From Natrinema amylolyticum (GTDB lineage: Archaea > Halobacteriota > Halobacteria > Halobacteriales > Natrialbaceae), in NCBI RefSeq assembly GCF_020515625.1, contig NZ_JAIWPJ010000001.1:1922001-1986000 (forward strand): DNA of 64,000 nucleotides, given 5' to 3'. How positions within the stretch are numbered: position 1 is the stretch's first letter; each line of letters begins with the position of its first letter. Position numbers and translations under genes: made by a program. The notes beneath the pieces are model-generated. The model was not told the DNA's origin. It worked only from the letters and a program-made list of their open reading frames with translations, and searched no databases. This document shows, in pieces, positions 9,154-53,891 of the stretch.

Positions 9154-10815
9154 ATGCCGACGGAATCGGACACTCATTATGACCCCTCGCTGGGGAACAA
9201 GTTCATCTTCGTCACCGGCGGCGTCATGTCGGGACTCGGCAAGGGGATCACGGCCGCGAGTACCGGCCGTCTCCTCAAAAACGCCGGGTTCGACGTCACC
9301 GCGGTGAAGATCGATCCGTATCTGAACGTCGACGCCGGGACGATGAACCCCTACCAGCACGGGGAAGTCTACGTCCTCGAGGACGGCGGCGAGGTCGACC
9401 TCGATCTCGGGAACTACGAACGGTTCCTCGACATCGACATGACCTCGGATCACAACATCACCACGGGGAAGACCTACCAGCACGTCATCGAGAAGGAGCG
9501 AGCGGGCGACTACCTGGGCAAGACGGTCCAGATCATCCCTCACATCACCGACGATATCAAGCGGCGCATTCGGGAGGCCGCCGAAGGCACCGACGTCTGT
9601 ATCATCGAAGTCGGCGGCACCGTCGGTGACATCGAGGGGATGCCCTACCTCGAGGCCCTGCGCCAGTTCGCCCACGAGGAACCGGAAGAGAACGTCCTCT
9701 TCACGCACGTCACCCTCGTTCCGTACTCGAAGAACGGCGAGCAGAAGACGAAGCCAACCCAGCACTCGGTCAAGGAGGTCCGTTCGATCGGCCTCCAGCC
9801 CGACGTGATCGTCGGCCGGTGTGAGGATCGTCTCGACCCCGAGACCAAGGAGAAGATCGCGCTGTTCTGTGATATTCCGACCGAGGCCGTGTTCTCGAAC
9901 CCGGACGTCGAGGACGTCTATCACGTCCCGCTGATGGTCGAAGACGAGGGACTCGACCAGTACGTCTTAGAGCACTTCGGACTGGCTGACGAGGCCCTGC
10001 CGGAGGGCGAGCGCGCGAACGACTGGCGCGAGATCGTCACCACAGAGAAAAACGGCGAGATCGACATCGCGCTGGTCGGGAAGTACGATCTCGAGGACGC
10101 GTACATGTCGATCCACGAGTCGCTGAAACACGCCGGCTTCGAGGTCGGCAGCGACGTGAACGTCCACTGGGTGGCCGCCGACGAACTGAGCGAGGGTCAC
10201 GACGGGCAACTCGCTGGAATGGACGGCGTCATCGTCCCCGGCGGCTTCGGGATGCGCGGCTCCGAGGGCAAGATCCGAGCCGTTCAGTACGCCCGCGAGA
10301 ACGGCGTCCCCTTCCTCGGGCTCTGTCTGGGCTTCCAGATGGCCGTCGTCGAGTACGCCCGGAACGTGCTGGGTCTCGAGGGCGCACACTCCGCGGAGAT
10401 GGAGGAAGACACGCCGCATCCGGTCATCGACATCCTGCCCGAACAGTACGAGGTCGAGGACATGGGCGGCACGATGCGACTCGGCGAGCACACGACCGTG
10501 ATCGAACCCGAGACGTTGGCCTACGAGCTCTACGGTGACACGTCCTGTTCCGAGCGCCACCGCCACCGCTACGAGGTCAACCCCGAGTACTTCGACCAGT
10601 TCGAGGACGAACCGCTCGTCTTCTCCGGCACCGCTGGCAACCGGATGGAGATCCTCGAACTCGAGGACCACCCGTTCTTCCTCGGGACGCAGTTCCACCC
10701 CGAGTACACGTCCCGACCCGGGCAGCCGAGTCCGCCCTTCCTCGGGCTGGTCGAGGCCGTCCTCGAACAGGCCGACGGCAGTGAGACCGCTGCTGAACCA
10801 GAGGCACAAACCTGA
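9154..10815 (+). CDS. pyrG: CTP synthase (glutamine hydrolysing)
   Basis: A 553-residue enzyme making CTP from UTP, ATP and glutamine. The N-terminal synthetase domain begins [20 protein letters not shown] (about 12-31), the CTPS P-loop, and includes [20 protein letters not shown]. The C-terminal class I glutamine amidotransferase domain has nucleophile Cys391 in GLCLGFQM and the His515/Glu517 pair in FHPEYTS. The length is normal. In many haloarchaea pyrG is followed directly by the GMP synthase ATPase gene; here a 2.6-kb low-GC island separates it from guaAb at 13457. Confidence 0.97.
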
Positions 10816-10819
10816 TAGA

Positions 10820-10903
10820 TATAGTAGCCACTGAATGTCAATTCACACCTAACTGCACGACGAGGTTGTGATTAGTGTGTAAATCGTTTCGGTGACTACT
10901 ATA
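10820..10903. repeat. 84-bp hairpin element, copy 1 (MITE-like)
   Basis: The element is bounded by 16-bp terminal inverted repeats: TATAGTAGCCACTGAA at 10820-10835 and, at 10888-10903, a sequence whose reverse complement is TATAGTAGTCACCGAA (14 of 16 match). Internally ATTCACAC and GTGTGTAAAT also face each other, so nearly the whole element can fold back on itself. It starts 5 nt after the pyrG stop codon. A second copy, about three quarters identical by eye, is at 53342-53424. No reading frame is inside. It may be a miniature inverted-repeat element or a conserved RNA or DNA hairpin; its position at the island's left edge suggests a link to the insertion. Confidence 0.7.
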
Positions 10904-11118
10904 GTTAACTCCAACTCGGTCATCGACGCGCGGACCGGCTATGGAAGAACGATCACGGCTTGCACGTTATTATCACTAGGAACTATTTTGTCTTACGTTC
11001 TATATTATATAGTTATATTTCAATATTCTGTTAGCTATTTTATTGTGATTGTCTTACACGATAGCGAAATAAAATAAACGATTTTGGTTATTACTACGGG
11101 GATGGATAATTCAGAGAA
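10904..11118. other. AT-rich intergenic stretch at the left of the island
   Basis: About 215 nt, markedly AT-rich from about 10965 to 11090, unlike the surrounding GC-rich chromosome. A 61-codon reading frame (10892-11077) crosses it, with a hydrophobic ILE/VAL/TYR-rich second half, but it starts inside the hairpin element, has no promoter spacing of its own and is not acidic. I see no supported gene here. Confidence 0.5.
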
Positions 11119-11760
11119 CTACACAGCGGGGTTTTCGATCTCAAAGTCCCACGACGCAGTCTCCCAGCCACTTCTCAGATCGTAATATTCAACAGAGAGT
11201 TCGATCCCCCAGGATTCGATAGGTCCAGTCAGAGAATCTTTTCCATAGGCTCGCACCGACGCCTCAATTTGGAGCGGTCGAACACCACCAGAGAGTGTCT
11301 CTTTGCCGTTGCATTCATCGTTCATTCCGGTAGAGTACGACTGTCCCAGCGCCTCAACTTGGAAATTCCAATTACACGTTCCGGCACAGTGATCCAAGTG
11401 CAACTTGAACTCGACCCCCCACTTCTCAACGGAACCACCCCAATCGAGTTGGTCCCCACTACAACTGAGGTGATCATAGAGGCCCACTTCATTATCCTGT
11501 TTCTTATTGAAGTCTCCGATGTTCCACTTAGCATCACCTGCTGACTTGAGCGTGAACCAGTCGGGCGTTTCCTCACCACTCGTTACGTAACCGGATGTTC
11601 CTTCGGCGAGCGTTAGTTCCTCGTCAGTCTGTTGGTTTCCAGTCTTGTCGGCTGCTGCAGTACCGCTAGCAACTCCTATTATCCCGAGTCCGCTGCCAGT
11701 AAGCAATCGAAGGGTGTTTCGCCTAGTCGGTTCGGAGGATTCACCATTGTTTTCTTTCAT
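11119..11760 (-). CDS. Tat-exported cysteine-containing protein with internal duplication, unknown function
   Basis: 213 residues. The N-terminus has a twin-arginine signal (TRRNTLRLLTGSG, Arg13-Arg14), a hydrophobic core and a likely cleavage after ATAAA near residue 37, so the mature protein of about 175 residues is secreted. It has four cysteines (100, 125, 129, 150) that could form two disulfides. Residues 109-139 and 179-210 are related: G-[SP]-[VI]-E-x-W-G-[VI]-E-[FL] followed later by W-[ND]-F-[QE]-[VI]-E. A TATA-like CTTTATTAAG (rc of 11785-11794) is about 30 nt upstream, with an inverted repeat ATTGG-N6-CCAAT (11765-11780) at the expected initiation site. It resembles no family I can name. 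A secreted toxin or halocin, an adhesin or an enzyme inhibitor are all possible. Confidence 0.72.
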   Translation of the reverse strand: MKENNGESSEPTRRNTLRLLTGSGLGIIGVASGTAAADKTGNQQTDEELTLAEGTSGYVTSGEETPDWFTLKSAGDAKWNIGDFNKKQDNEVGLYDHLSCSGDQLDWGGSVEKWGVEFKLHLDHCAGTCNWNFQVEALGQSYSTGMNDECNGKETLSGGVRPLQIEASVRAYGKDSLTGPIESWGIELSVEYYDLRSGWETASWDFEIENPAV

Positions 11761-12139
11761 CGCAATTGGTTATTTCCAATGGCACTTAATAAAGTTATTT
11801 ATATACAGAATTTATTATTTTCTAATATTTATTCCCCTCACTCATTTGGGGTAAGGGGATGTGTGCAGCTAGTAACTTGAGAAGAAATGACTACGCTGCA
11901 TGGTACTATCTAGTTGTTCGATCCATTTCCTGGCGCTTGTCCGACTGCTAACCTACGAGTTATGGAAAAATTCAATCCCCATTTTGGGAGGATGAGGACC
12001 ACTTTTCTATGTGATTTCAATCAACATAGTTGAGGTAGGTCATGTTTAGTTTGTAGCCTTCTGCCAGATGGCAACGGTTTGAAGACACGATTCTGCGGTT
12101 AATGGTTTAACGTAGCTAGACAGTTTGACGGTAGATTTT
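11761..12139. other. AT-rich gap with no recognised gene
   Basis: About 380 nt of low-GC sequence between the secreted-protein gene and the transposase remnant. It includes the promoter of the secreted-protein gene (about 11765-11795). The rest (11800-12139) has frequent stops in all frames; I see no gene, RNA structure or repeat I can support. Confidence 0.5.
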
Positions 12140-12610
12140 ATGAGAATTAACGTCTAGAATTATATATTTGATAGCATTCTGATTGCCTTGTTTCTAGTAT
12201 TGATATCGGAGTCTGTATCGACGGAGTGTTGTCTGGGGATGCTGTTCATCATTGACGAGAAACACAGCGTTTTCGACGTCATATTTCTCGATTGATTCTC
12301 GCAGAAAGCGTTCAGCCAATGTTGTCGTAGTCGTTGAAAATAACCGTATATGGAGATTTTGGTCGCTTCCGACTTCACTGCAGCGAACAGCCAATACTGG
12401 TGACTGTCAATGTGAATCACACTTTCGTTGAGCGCAACGTGACTCGGATTTCGAAAGCAATAGTTGGGCAAGATAAAGCCGAATATCAGGGCGACATCAG
12501 CTAACGCAGTCTCCGCTCTCGCCCCACCATACCCAACCCGATCCAGTCGCTACACCCATTGAGGTGGGCGATTTTTGGCATAGAGAGCCACAAAATCGTT
12601 CCCTTTCTTT
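12140..12610 (-). pseudogene. Decayed IS6-type (ISH) transposase
   Basis: The minus strand shows scattered pieces of a haloarchaeal IS6-family DDE transposase in several frames. In order: RPDIRLYLAQLLLSK (near 12485) resembling the family's KLGIQLHLAGLSLS; SHVALNESVIHIDSHQYWLFAAV (about 12365-12445), the first catalytic block but with Asn where the family has Asp (VDETxI); LHIRLFSTTTTTLAERFLRE; KYDVENAVFLVNDEQHPQTTLRRYRLRYQY (ending at 12194), then a stop followed in frame by KQGNQNAIKY, matching the family's RHGNRNAIERVF. At least one frameshift, an in-frame stop and an apparent deletion between the first two blocks show it is dead. No intact terminal repeats were found. Confidence 0.72.
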
Positions 12611-12677
12611 TCCGCTTAACTAAACACGGCTATTTGCAGTGCAAAAATATATAAGTCAAAAAACCAAATTCGAAAAT

Positions 12678-13121
12678 ATGATTGTGTCTATAAAAACCAA
12701 AATCATTCAGTGGCTGCTAGACGAAGATGTATCGGTTGCGACAGTGCTCGGGTTCCTCTCTATTCCTTTTACCCTGGCTGTCTCTCTAAGTACGGGTGCG
12801 TCCCACTATGATGCTGGCCCAGTAATGCTTGCTGGGTTCTTAGCGGGGCTATACTACAGCAATCAATCGACCGCTGTCGTGCGTGCTGGCCTGCGAACCG
12901 GCGTTATCGGAAGTCTCCCCGTGATTTGGGCCTCTACCAGTTTCATCGCATCTGGATGGGAAATATCGTTTAGCTACGCCGTTCTCGCGGTCGCGTTCGC
13001 GTTGCTTTGGCACCTTTTTGCCCTCGTGGCTTGTAGCTTCTTCGGTGTCGTCGGTGCGCTGGTCGGCAACATCGTCGGTCGTGTTCCTCCGTTTCGTCGC
13101 ATCGCACCGAAGACCGTCTGA
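12678..13121 (+). CDS. Small multi-pass membrane protein (DUF5518-like)
   Basis: About 147 residues from the ATG at 12678, with four hydrophobic segments: LGFLSIPFTLAVSLSTG, AGPVMLAGFLAGLYYS, a segment around VIGSLPVIWASTSFIAS, and a long C-terminal AVLAVAFALLWHLFALVACSFFGVVGALVGNIVG. The order and the glycine-rich last helix fit the haloarchaeal DUF5518 membrane family, whose role is unknown; the assignment is by eye. The frame extends upstream to 12639, but a strong TATA (ATATATAAG, 12648-12656) ends about 22 nt before 12678, giving a leaderless start there. GC content rises again from this gene onward, so it marks the right side of the island. Confidence 0.66.
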   Translation: MIVSIKTKIIQWLLDEDVSVATVLGFLSIPFTLAVSLSTGASHYDAGPVMLAGFLAGLYYSNQSTAVVRAGLRTGVIGSLPVIWASTSFIASGWEISFSYAVLAVAFALLWHLFALVACSFFGVVGALVGNIVGRVPPFRRIAPKTV

Positions 13122-13388
13122 CCTGACGGTTCAGAATATCGCCGGATTGTCCCTTCCCGTCTGCATCGCGGTTCTCGCCGGTTTCACTCTTTCACTCGCT
13201 TCGAACCGCGTTCTATCGGAACCGCACACTCCCCGCGCGATTGAGTGTGGTCTGATCTACAGTGACTCCTATGGGTTTGTTACGCTTCCACGTCGTTCGA
13301 ACACTCGAGCCGTCAGTTTGAAATATCCCTGAGAAGGGGTCGACTGATGATTCAAAATCGTTTTGTCTGTGCCGTCCCGAAACTTGCC
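13122..13388. other. Gap between the island and guaAb
   Basis: The sequence returns to typical GC content. Short frames continue (for example across 13140-13330) but lack acidic bias or a recognisable family. I see no supported gene. The right end contains a weak TATA-like GTTTTGTC near 13362, 27 nt before the candidate leader ORF at 13389. Confidence 0.5.
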
Positions 13389-53309: not shown

Positions 53310-53341
53310 GGATTGATCCTCGGGGTCGGCGCATATAACGG

Positions 53342-53424
53342 TATAGGAGCCACTGAAGTCAATGAACACCCAATCGCGTGCCACCGTTGCGATCGGTGTG
53401 TGAATCGTTTCCGTGGCTGCTATC
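53342..53424. repeat. 84-bp hairpin element, copy 2 (MITE-like)
   Basis: Terminal inverted repeats: ATAGGAGCCACTGAA at 53343-53357 and its partner at 53409-53423, whose reverse complement is ATAGCAGCCACGGAA (13 of 15 match). GTCAATGAACACC and GGTGTGTGAATCG form the inner arms, as in copy 1 (10820-10903). The left end abuts the TATA region of the minus-strand E1 alpha gene, so it could also influence that promoter. About one quarter of positions differ from copy 1 but the arms remain complementary. Confidence 0.68.
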
Positions 53425-53579
53425 TCTCCGAACATCTGATTAGCGGGGCTCAGCGCCGACGGCGTATACTGCCGTCCGCCAGCGTCCTACCCTCCTCATT
53501 CACTCACTTAATCAAAAACTCATCTCAGCGTGAAGATCTCTCGACTTCAAGGAGGCTGCCGGCCGAGTATAGTGTGTAA

Positions 53580-53891
53580 ATGTCGGAAATGAATGGATTC
53601 TTATTCGAGGTGTTGGCGGCCGAACAACGGCGACGCATCCTGTTCGCGCTCGTCGATCACAGTTCAGACGACGAGTCGCCGGTCTCCGTCGATGAGCCGC
53701 CGGATGCGACCGGCGGTGATACTACGGCCCACATCAAACGGTACCACGTCCACCTCCCCAAACTAGACGACTACGGCTTTATCGAGTGGGATCGGCGCAC
53801 CAACACTGTGAGACCGGGGAACCGTTTCGCGGAAGTGAGACCGATTCTGGAACTGTGTCGCGAGCGAGAAGACGAGCTCTCGGTTACGTGA
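53580..53891 (+). CDS. DUF7344 winged-helix protein
   Basis: 103 residues: MNGFLFEVLAAEQRRRILFALVDHSSDDESPVSVDEPPDATGGDTTAHIKRYHVHLPKLDDYGFIEWDRRTNTVRPGNRFAEVRPILELCRERED. The FEVLAAEQRRRIL opening and YHVHLPKLDDYGFIEWDRRTNTV block are the DUF7344 helix-turn-helix and wing; a paralogue is at 25964. It is likely a DNA-binding regulator. A TATA-like element GTATAGTG lies only about 13 nt upstream, so the promoter is unclear. Confidence 0.85.
   Translation: MSEMNGFLFEVLAAEQRRRILFALVDHSSDDESPVSVDEPPDATGGDTTAHIKRYHVHLPKLDDYGFIEWDRRTNTVRPGNRFAEVRPILELCREREDELSVT

Follow-up and report, generated by a model that had tools for sequence, protein, structure and literature searches.

The repeat unit of pneumococcus (RUP), an element of 107 bp, has been proposed to be moved by IS630-Spn1, and ERIC (127 bp) and Correia elements (about 107 or 155 bp) are TA-flanked repeats with long stem-loops (PMC2229807). 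The transposase of ISY100, a member of the IS630/Tc1-mariner family, inserts almost exclusively at TA, which is duplicated (PMC2170065). According to the title of a study by Tenzen and Ohtsubo in the reference list of that paper, IS630 prefers the TA in CTAG. For Haloquadratum walsbyi, the main text of PMC3119063 describes three classes of transposase-free mobile repeats: MITEs, which have only a few terminal bases in common with their source transposon; SMRs, which have terminal inverted repeats but do not duplicate the target; and PATEs, which show neither feature. IS630 is not mentioned in that main text.

Here we analyse a window of 64,000 nucleotides, the whole stretch of DNA under study, from the genome of Natrinema amylolyticum, in which a first-pass annotation had noticed two similar hairpin elements at 10.8 and 53.3 kb. 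Each of them is likely a copy of a non-autonomous foldback MITE that inserts at TA, with a preference for CTAG, and is served in trans by an IS630/Tc1-mariner-type transposase. The copies in this genome would be old, immobile residents.

Two copies of the element in the window

A covariance model (R1) built from 22 copies of the same genome, these two included, recovers both elements at the places first noticed. Their parts are as follows.

10820-10903, plus strand: copy 1 of the putative MITE, entire, its two flanking TA dinucleotides included; length 84 bp; 84.7 bits with model R1, E 1.9e-23
10820-10821, no strand: left TA of copy 1 (target-site duplication), in register with the resolved empty sites of other copies
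10902-10903, no strand: right TA of copy 1 (target-site duplication), in register with the resolved empty sites of other copies
10822-10835, plus strand: left 14-bp terminal inverted repeat of copy 1, TAGTAGCCACTGAA
10888-10901, minus strand: right terminal inverted repeat of copy 1, reverse complement TAGTAGTCACCGAA, two mismatches to the left repeat
10845-10857, plus strand: 5' arm of the inner stem of copy 1 (alignment columns 26-38), covarying
10867-10880, plus strand: 3' arm of the inner stem of copy 1 (alignment columns 48-61), covarying
53342-53424, plus strand: copy 2 of the putative MITE; model R1 79.5 bits, E 7.8e-22
53344-53357, plus strand: left terminal inverted repeat of copy 2, TAGGAGCCACTGAA
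53409-53422, minus strand: right terminal inverted repeat of copy 2, reverse complement TAGCAGCCACGGAA

The two copies are homologous. They agree in 62 of 84 alignment columns (74%) with a single 1-base gap, which bears out the estimate by eye of about three quarters. Even without the gap, 50 of 84 positions are identical; the best of 40 simulated windows reaches 42. The terminal inverted repeats had been put at 14-16 bp; we find repeats of 14 bp, which are perfect in many other copies, and the outermost 15-16 bases of the two window copies are 87-88% complementary. Folded as single strands, the elements score 2-3 standard deviations better than shuffled sequences.

The length of 84 bp given at first includes the flanks. 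The mobile core is 80 bp long (TAGTAGCCACTGAA...TTCAGTGGCTACTA), and the outermost TATA is the TA target duplication followed by the element's own TA. At copy 2, the right flanking TA is lost, having decayed to TC.

No third copy is present in the window, where the next best place for the covariance model has an E of 0.46, at noise level. Neither the half match at 12706 nor the weak match at 13190 is a copy. The elements had also been described as containing no ORF. A minus-strand frame does stay open through the 53.3-kb copy; nothing suggests that it is a gene.

Copy number and distribution

The two elements are not a pair, as had been assumed, but two of at least 23 copies in the genome (4.71 Mb, 11 contigs). 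BLAST yields 20 matches below E 1e-6, to which further searches add C1:842604, a diverged copy at C1:471157 and the 53.3-kb copy; the total rests on searches and is a lower bound. At least one of the sampled haloarchaeal genomes holds roughly 50 copies.

In the class Halobacteria, matches to the covariance model occur in 120 of 292 genomes, belonging to 33 of 77 genera, and none was found in the remaining 172 genomes. A search of the phylum is positive in 31 of 393 genomes, all within the same order, and no copy lies outside that order among the 393. Haloarchaeal plasmid records contain 95 places in 33 records, and with a single exception the best place in an annotated record has no annotated gene beneath it. 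In viral contigs the 16-bp end is matched exactly at five places, but these are not elements, and phage records give no match.

An unannotated mobile family is found in about 40% of the sampled haloarchaeal genomes. It accounts for many otherwise unexplained hairpins beside haloarchaeal genes, and its insertions can serve as markers for strain comparison.

Insertion sites and mobility

The element is exactly 84 bp long at 90 of 95 distinct insertion sites. It is preceded by C at 74 of the 95 and followed by G at 69, with both present at 53, so that CTAG is the preferred context. Empty sites read C-TA-G and occupied sites C-TA[80 bp]TA-G. As TA stands on both sides of occupied sites, the unit consists of 80 bp plus a duplicated TA, a structure that in sequence alone looks the same as an element carrying one extra TA.

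These empty sites come from relatives, where the first-pass annotation had proposed to look for them. The copy L006 of N. amylolyticum has a clean empty counterpart in genome G301 (GTCGAC-TA-CTCCGC). For the 53.3-kb copy, the orthologous promoters of G302, G298 and G143 provide a supportive empty site, ACAG-TA-GCTCC (TATATAACAG-TA-GCTC; ATATAACAG-TA-GCTC). Two copies of genome G202 are also resolved: L100 is absent from G005, G299 and G143 (CCCTCG-TA-GGTCG), and L095 from G005 (CCAC-TA-GAG). A third empty site in the relatives of G202 reads GAGC-T(A/G)-G. No empty site was obtained for the 10.8-kb copy, because its downstream region is not syntenic in relatives.

Identical pairs make up 45 of 210 in G202, 15 of 21 in G059 and 24 of 45 in G107, and in these genomes and in G114 identical copies have unrelated flanks. 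The many identical copies point to recent spread in these relatives. The genome of N. amylolyticum has none among the 120 pairs formed by the 16 copies compared. The miniature inverted-repeat element that had been proposed as one of two readings is supported by the dispersal in many copies, by the identity of copies within some genomes, by the duplicated TA and by the empty sites of relatives. Two copies only, no flanking duplication and no covariation had been named as the outcomes that would speak against those readings, and none of them came about.

A small hairpin could also be a REP- or PATE-like element moved through single-stranded DNA by a Y1 (HUH, IS200/IS605-type) transposase. The size and the hairpin structure agree with this, and such PATEs are abundant in Haloquadratum according to the main text of PMC3119063. 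Set against them are symmetric terminal inverted repeats that reach the very ends and the TA duplication seen at empty sites; PATEs, as described there, have neither, which makes a Y1-moved hairpin highly improbable. These two features set the element apart from the IS200/IS605-derived PATE class of that description, and the TA duplication sets it apart from the SMR class.

Copies can also lie next to one another. In Natrarchaeobius chitinivorans (L249, NZ_REGA01000003.1, 1808-3021), two MITEs, one of them with a long loop, stand head to tail with zero bases between their cores. Tandem head-to-tail pairs 1-2 bases apart are seen at L089 (G025:C5:50921-51090) and at G025:C48:137696-137864. Pairs of CTATAGTA ends that span 114 bp, and not about 86, occur at G202:C1:1625714-1625827 and G005:C1:1130277-1130390 and possibly represent a longer relative of the MITE.

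Hairpin structure

The ends of the element enclose a second stem-loop. Among copies of the N. amylolyticum genome, 95.4% of the cells of this inner stem are paired, and 8 of 27 pairs have changed on both sides. An alignment of 31 copies from many genomes gives pairing in 99.0% of cells and double-sided changes in 9 of 30 pairs, compared with 3.0 in shuffles; related copies inflate such counts. None of 500 shuffles reaches the observed count in either set, and the signal collapses in slid controls. One pair of the 31-copy alignment is UA in 16 copies, CG in 14 and UG in one. The terminal repeats also change together between lineages (CCACTG, CAACTG, CCGCTG). Differences between the two window copies had been described as preserving or nearly preserving the pairing of the arms; across the family, the inner stem covaries.

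This covariation of the whole hairpin exceeds what a plain IS-derived MITE needs. Since the arms of a DNA foldback can stay matched by correction and related copies inflate the counts, it is no proof of an RNA. Selection on the hairpin can produce it, and so can quasi-palindrome correction; a cellular function is not needed. In the mechanism that we favour, transposition itself, quasi-palindrome correction of one arm by the other, or both probably maintain the hairpin. A more specific version, in which the entire hairpin is a functional part and selection maintains the inner stem, is unlikely: either the folded form (cruciform or single-stranded) would be recognized in transposition, or transcribed copies would act as RNA hairpins, some of them kept, as at pyrG and E1 alpha. 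Recognition of a folded form, if true, would be out of the ordinary among DDE systems that duplicate TA. The covarying inner stem makes selection on foldback MITEs as structures directly testable.

Genomic surroundings

The positions of both copies relative to genes agree with the first description. Copy 1 starts 4 bp past the stop codon of pyrG (9154-10815; TIGR00337, 779.9 bits). On its 3' side lies an AT-rich stretch (10940-12720) that contains an ORF of 213 aa on the minus strand (11119-11760) without a match to Pfam or NCBIfam models. The region downstream of pyrG differs in relatives, so the AT-rich stretch looks like a strain-specific insertion.

Copy 2 is located directly upstream of the TATA box of a divergent, minus-strand gene for pyruvate dehydrogenase E1 alpha (TIGR03181, 425.9 bits), which it abuts. 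On the minus strand, at 53311-53435, the longest E1 alpha ORF starts just past the MITE and reads through it; L164 is similar. The true start of E1 alpha is probably near 53310. A small DUF7344 protein (PF24035) is encoded at 53580-53891, divergently from E1 alpha across copy 2. In G301, an independent longer-loop copy, L338 (G301:C3:2621200-2622600; CGGTTCGGAG...GAACCGCG), is inserted in the same E1 alpha promoter, a few bases from the place of copy 2, and a TATA-like stretch still stands beside E1 alpha in both genomes.

Such positions invite the other reading offered at first, a conserved structured element. It could act as a transcript-end RNA hairpin, as a terminator or, at promoters, as a binding site for a protein, with dispersal being secondary. 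The covarying arms fit, as do the places of the copies at the pyrG stop codon and the E1 alpha TATA box, the independent arrival of L338 at the same promoter in another genome, and the nearly exclusive intergenic position on annotated plasmids. However, orthologous sites are empty in close relatives, none was found in 172 of the 292 class genomes, and some genomes carry identical, recent copies. Purifying selection also predicts intergenic positions, and correction between arms can yield covariation. Furthermore, three copies with their flanks find no match in Rfam up to E 1. A mainly cellular role is therefore very unlikely, and of this reading the structure stands, while covariation does not require the function.

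A candidate mobilizer

In the favoured account, a non-autonomous MITE would move by cut and paste when an IS630/Tc1-mariner transposase acts in trans on its 14-bp repeats, inserting it into TA, preferentially in CTAG, with TA duplicated. TA duplication and a preference for CTAG are hallmarks of IS630, and we infer an IS630-type mobilizer from them. Movement by a haloarchaeal transposase, as suggested at first, is accordingly likely in kind, and the best candidate is an IS630 group with nearly identical tips.

A scan of genome contigs yielded 80 haloarchaeal IS630 loci; the analysis covered 80 of 306 relatives. Among these are 44 complete copies that carry TATAGTA at 88 of 88 ends, a tip that was required in picking the ends and that is also obtained from copy comparison without this requirement, and AGAA at positions 14-17. 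They are preceded by C in 36 cases and followed by G in 35, the same C...G context as the MITE. Their ends, TATAGTA-N-N-C-R-TTAGAA, are close to those of the MITE: TAGTAGCCACTGAA and the IS repeat TAGTA-N-N-C-R-TTAGAA differ by one indel (TGAA versus TTAGAA) and have the 7 tip bases and GAA in common. In N. chitinivorans (L249), an IS630 copy of this kind is nested within the long-loop MITE, inserted in CTAG; its proteins match PF13358 (DDE_3) and NF033545 (IS630). MITE and IS630 occur together in 53 genomes, a weak association (odds ratio 2.0, p 0.006, without correction for phylogeny).

Among the 80 of 306 relatives, no IS630 has the exact inverted repeat of the MITE, and a search of the N. 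amylolyticum genome finds no encoded IS630. The mobilizer is for these reasons a proposal, namely a member of the sampled IS630 group whose source has since been lost, or a close relative. With the transposase absent and the copies diverged, those of N. amylolyticum look like old, immobile residents that serve no necessary function. G202 and G005 have identical MITE copies, yet neither showed an intact member of the sampled IS630 group, a pair of CTATAGTA ends at IS-sized distance or an autonomous element with exact MITE ends. The piece of DDE_3 seen in G202 is fragmentary and has no recognizable ends.

The transposase might instead belong to a TA-inserting element outside the sampled group, from another IS630 subgroup or another family, that has no more than a few terminal bases in common with the MITE. 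This is what one could read from G202, G005, G192, G041 and G166, where identical or near-identical copies exist without an intact IS630 of that group, from the indel between the repeats, and from the existence of two other haloarchaeal IS630 subgroups with different ends. Yet MITEs often outlast the source of their transposase, the sampled group shares the TA duplication in CTAG, the TATAGTA tip and the terminal GAA, and no other TA-inserting element with MITE-like tips was found. We consider an outside mobilizer unlikely. The other two IS630 groups, with ends TAGTGATTCGGG (G091) and TGATACGGTCGTGC (G114), are not the source; several near-identical copies of the latter group are found in G114 (L161, L166, L169, L171). 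The family offers a natural archaeal test case for trans-mobilization by IS630/Tc1-mariner transposases.

Comparison with known systems

In the literature searched, the repeat sequence gave unrelated matches, haloarchaeal MITEs and IS630 led to the Haloquadratum study as the one relevant paper, and no description of this sequence was found. By the main-text description in PMC3119063, the family falls into the MITE category used for Haloquadratum.

The haloarchaeal IS630 element and the MITE share the TA duplication, the preference for CTAG, the TATAGTA tip and a repeat whose inner end reads GAA. Unlike the MITE, the IS is about 1,059 bp long with its flanking TA and has two overlapping ORFs as transposase genes, and the internal sequences of the two appear unrelated. 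In Natrinema mahii (L164, minus strand), ORF B of the IS630 lies at 1438-1929 and is overlapped by ORF A on its upstream side.

Correia/NEMIS and ERIC elements are, like the family described here, TA-flanked repeats with stem-loops, and Correia elements also come in a longer version with additional central sequence, as this family does at L249 and L338. Their hosts belong to another domain, and no relation in sequence is known.

RUP is similarly small, non-autonomous and intergenic, with TA termini and insertion at TA and ends that resemble an IS630-family element (PMC2229807). The present family differs from it in having a core of 80 bp, an archaeal host and a second covarying stem. No IS630 was found whose ends match exactly, and of the genomes of the same genus that carry the MITE, most lack the candidate source. 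We file the family as a MITE with a provisional source transposon, of a kind known from RUP, Correia and ERIC, which may prove identical to a Haloquadratum family.
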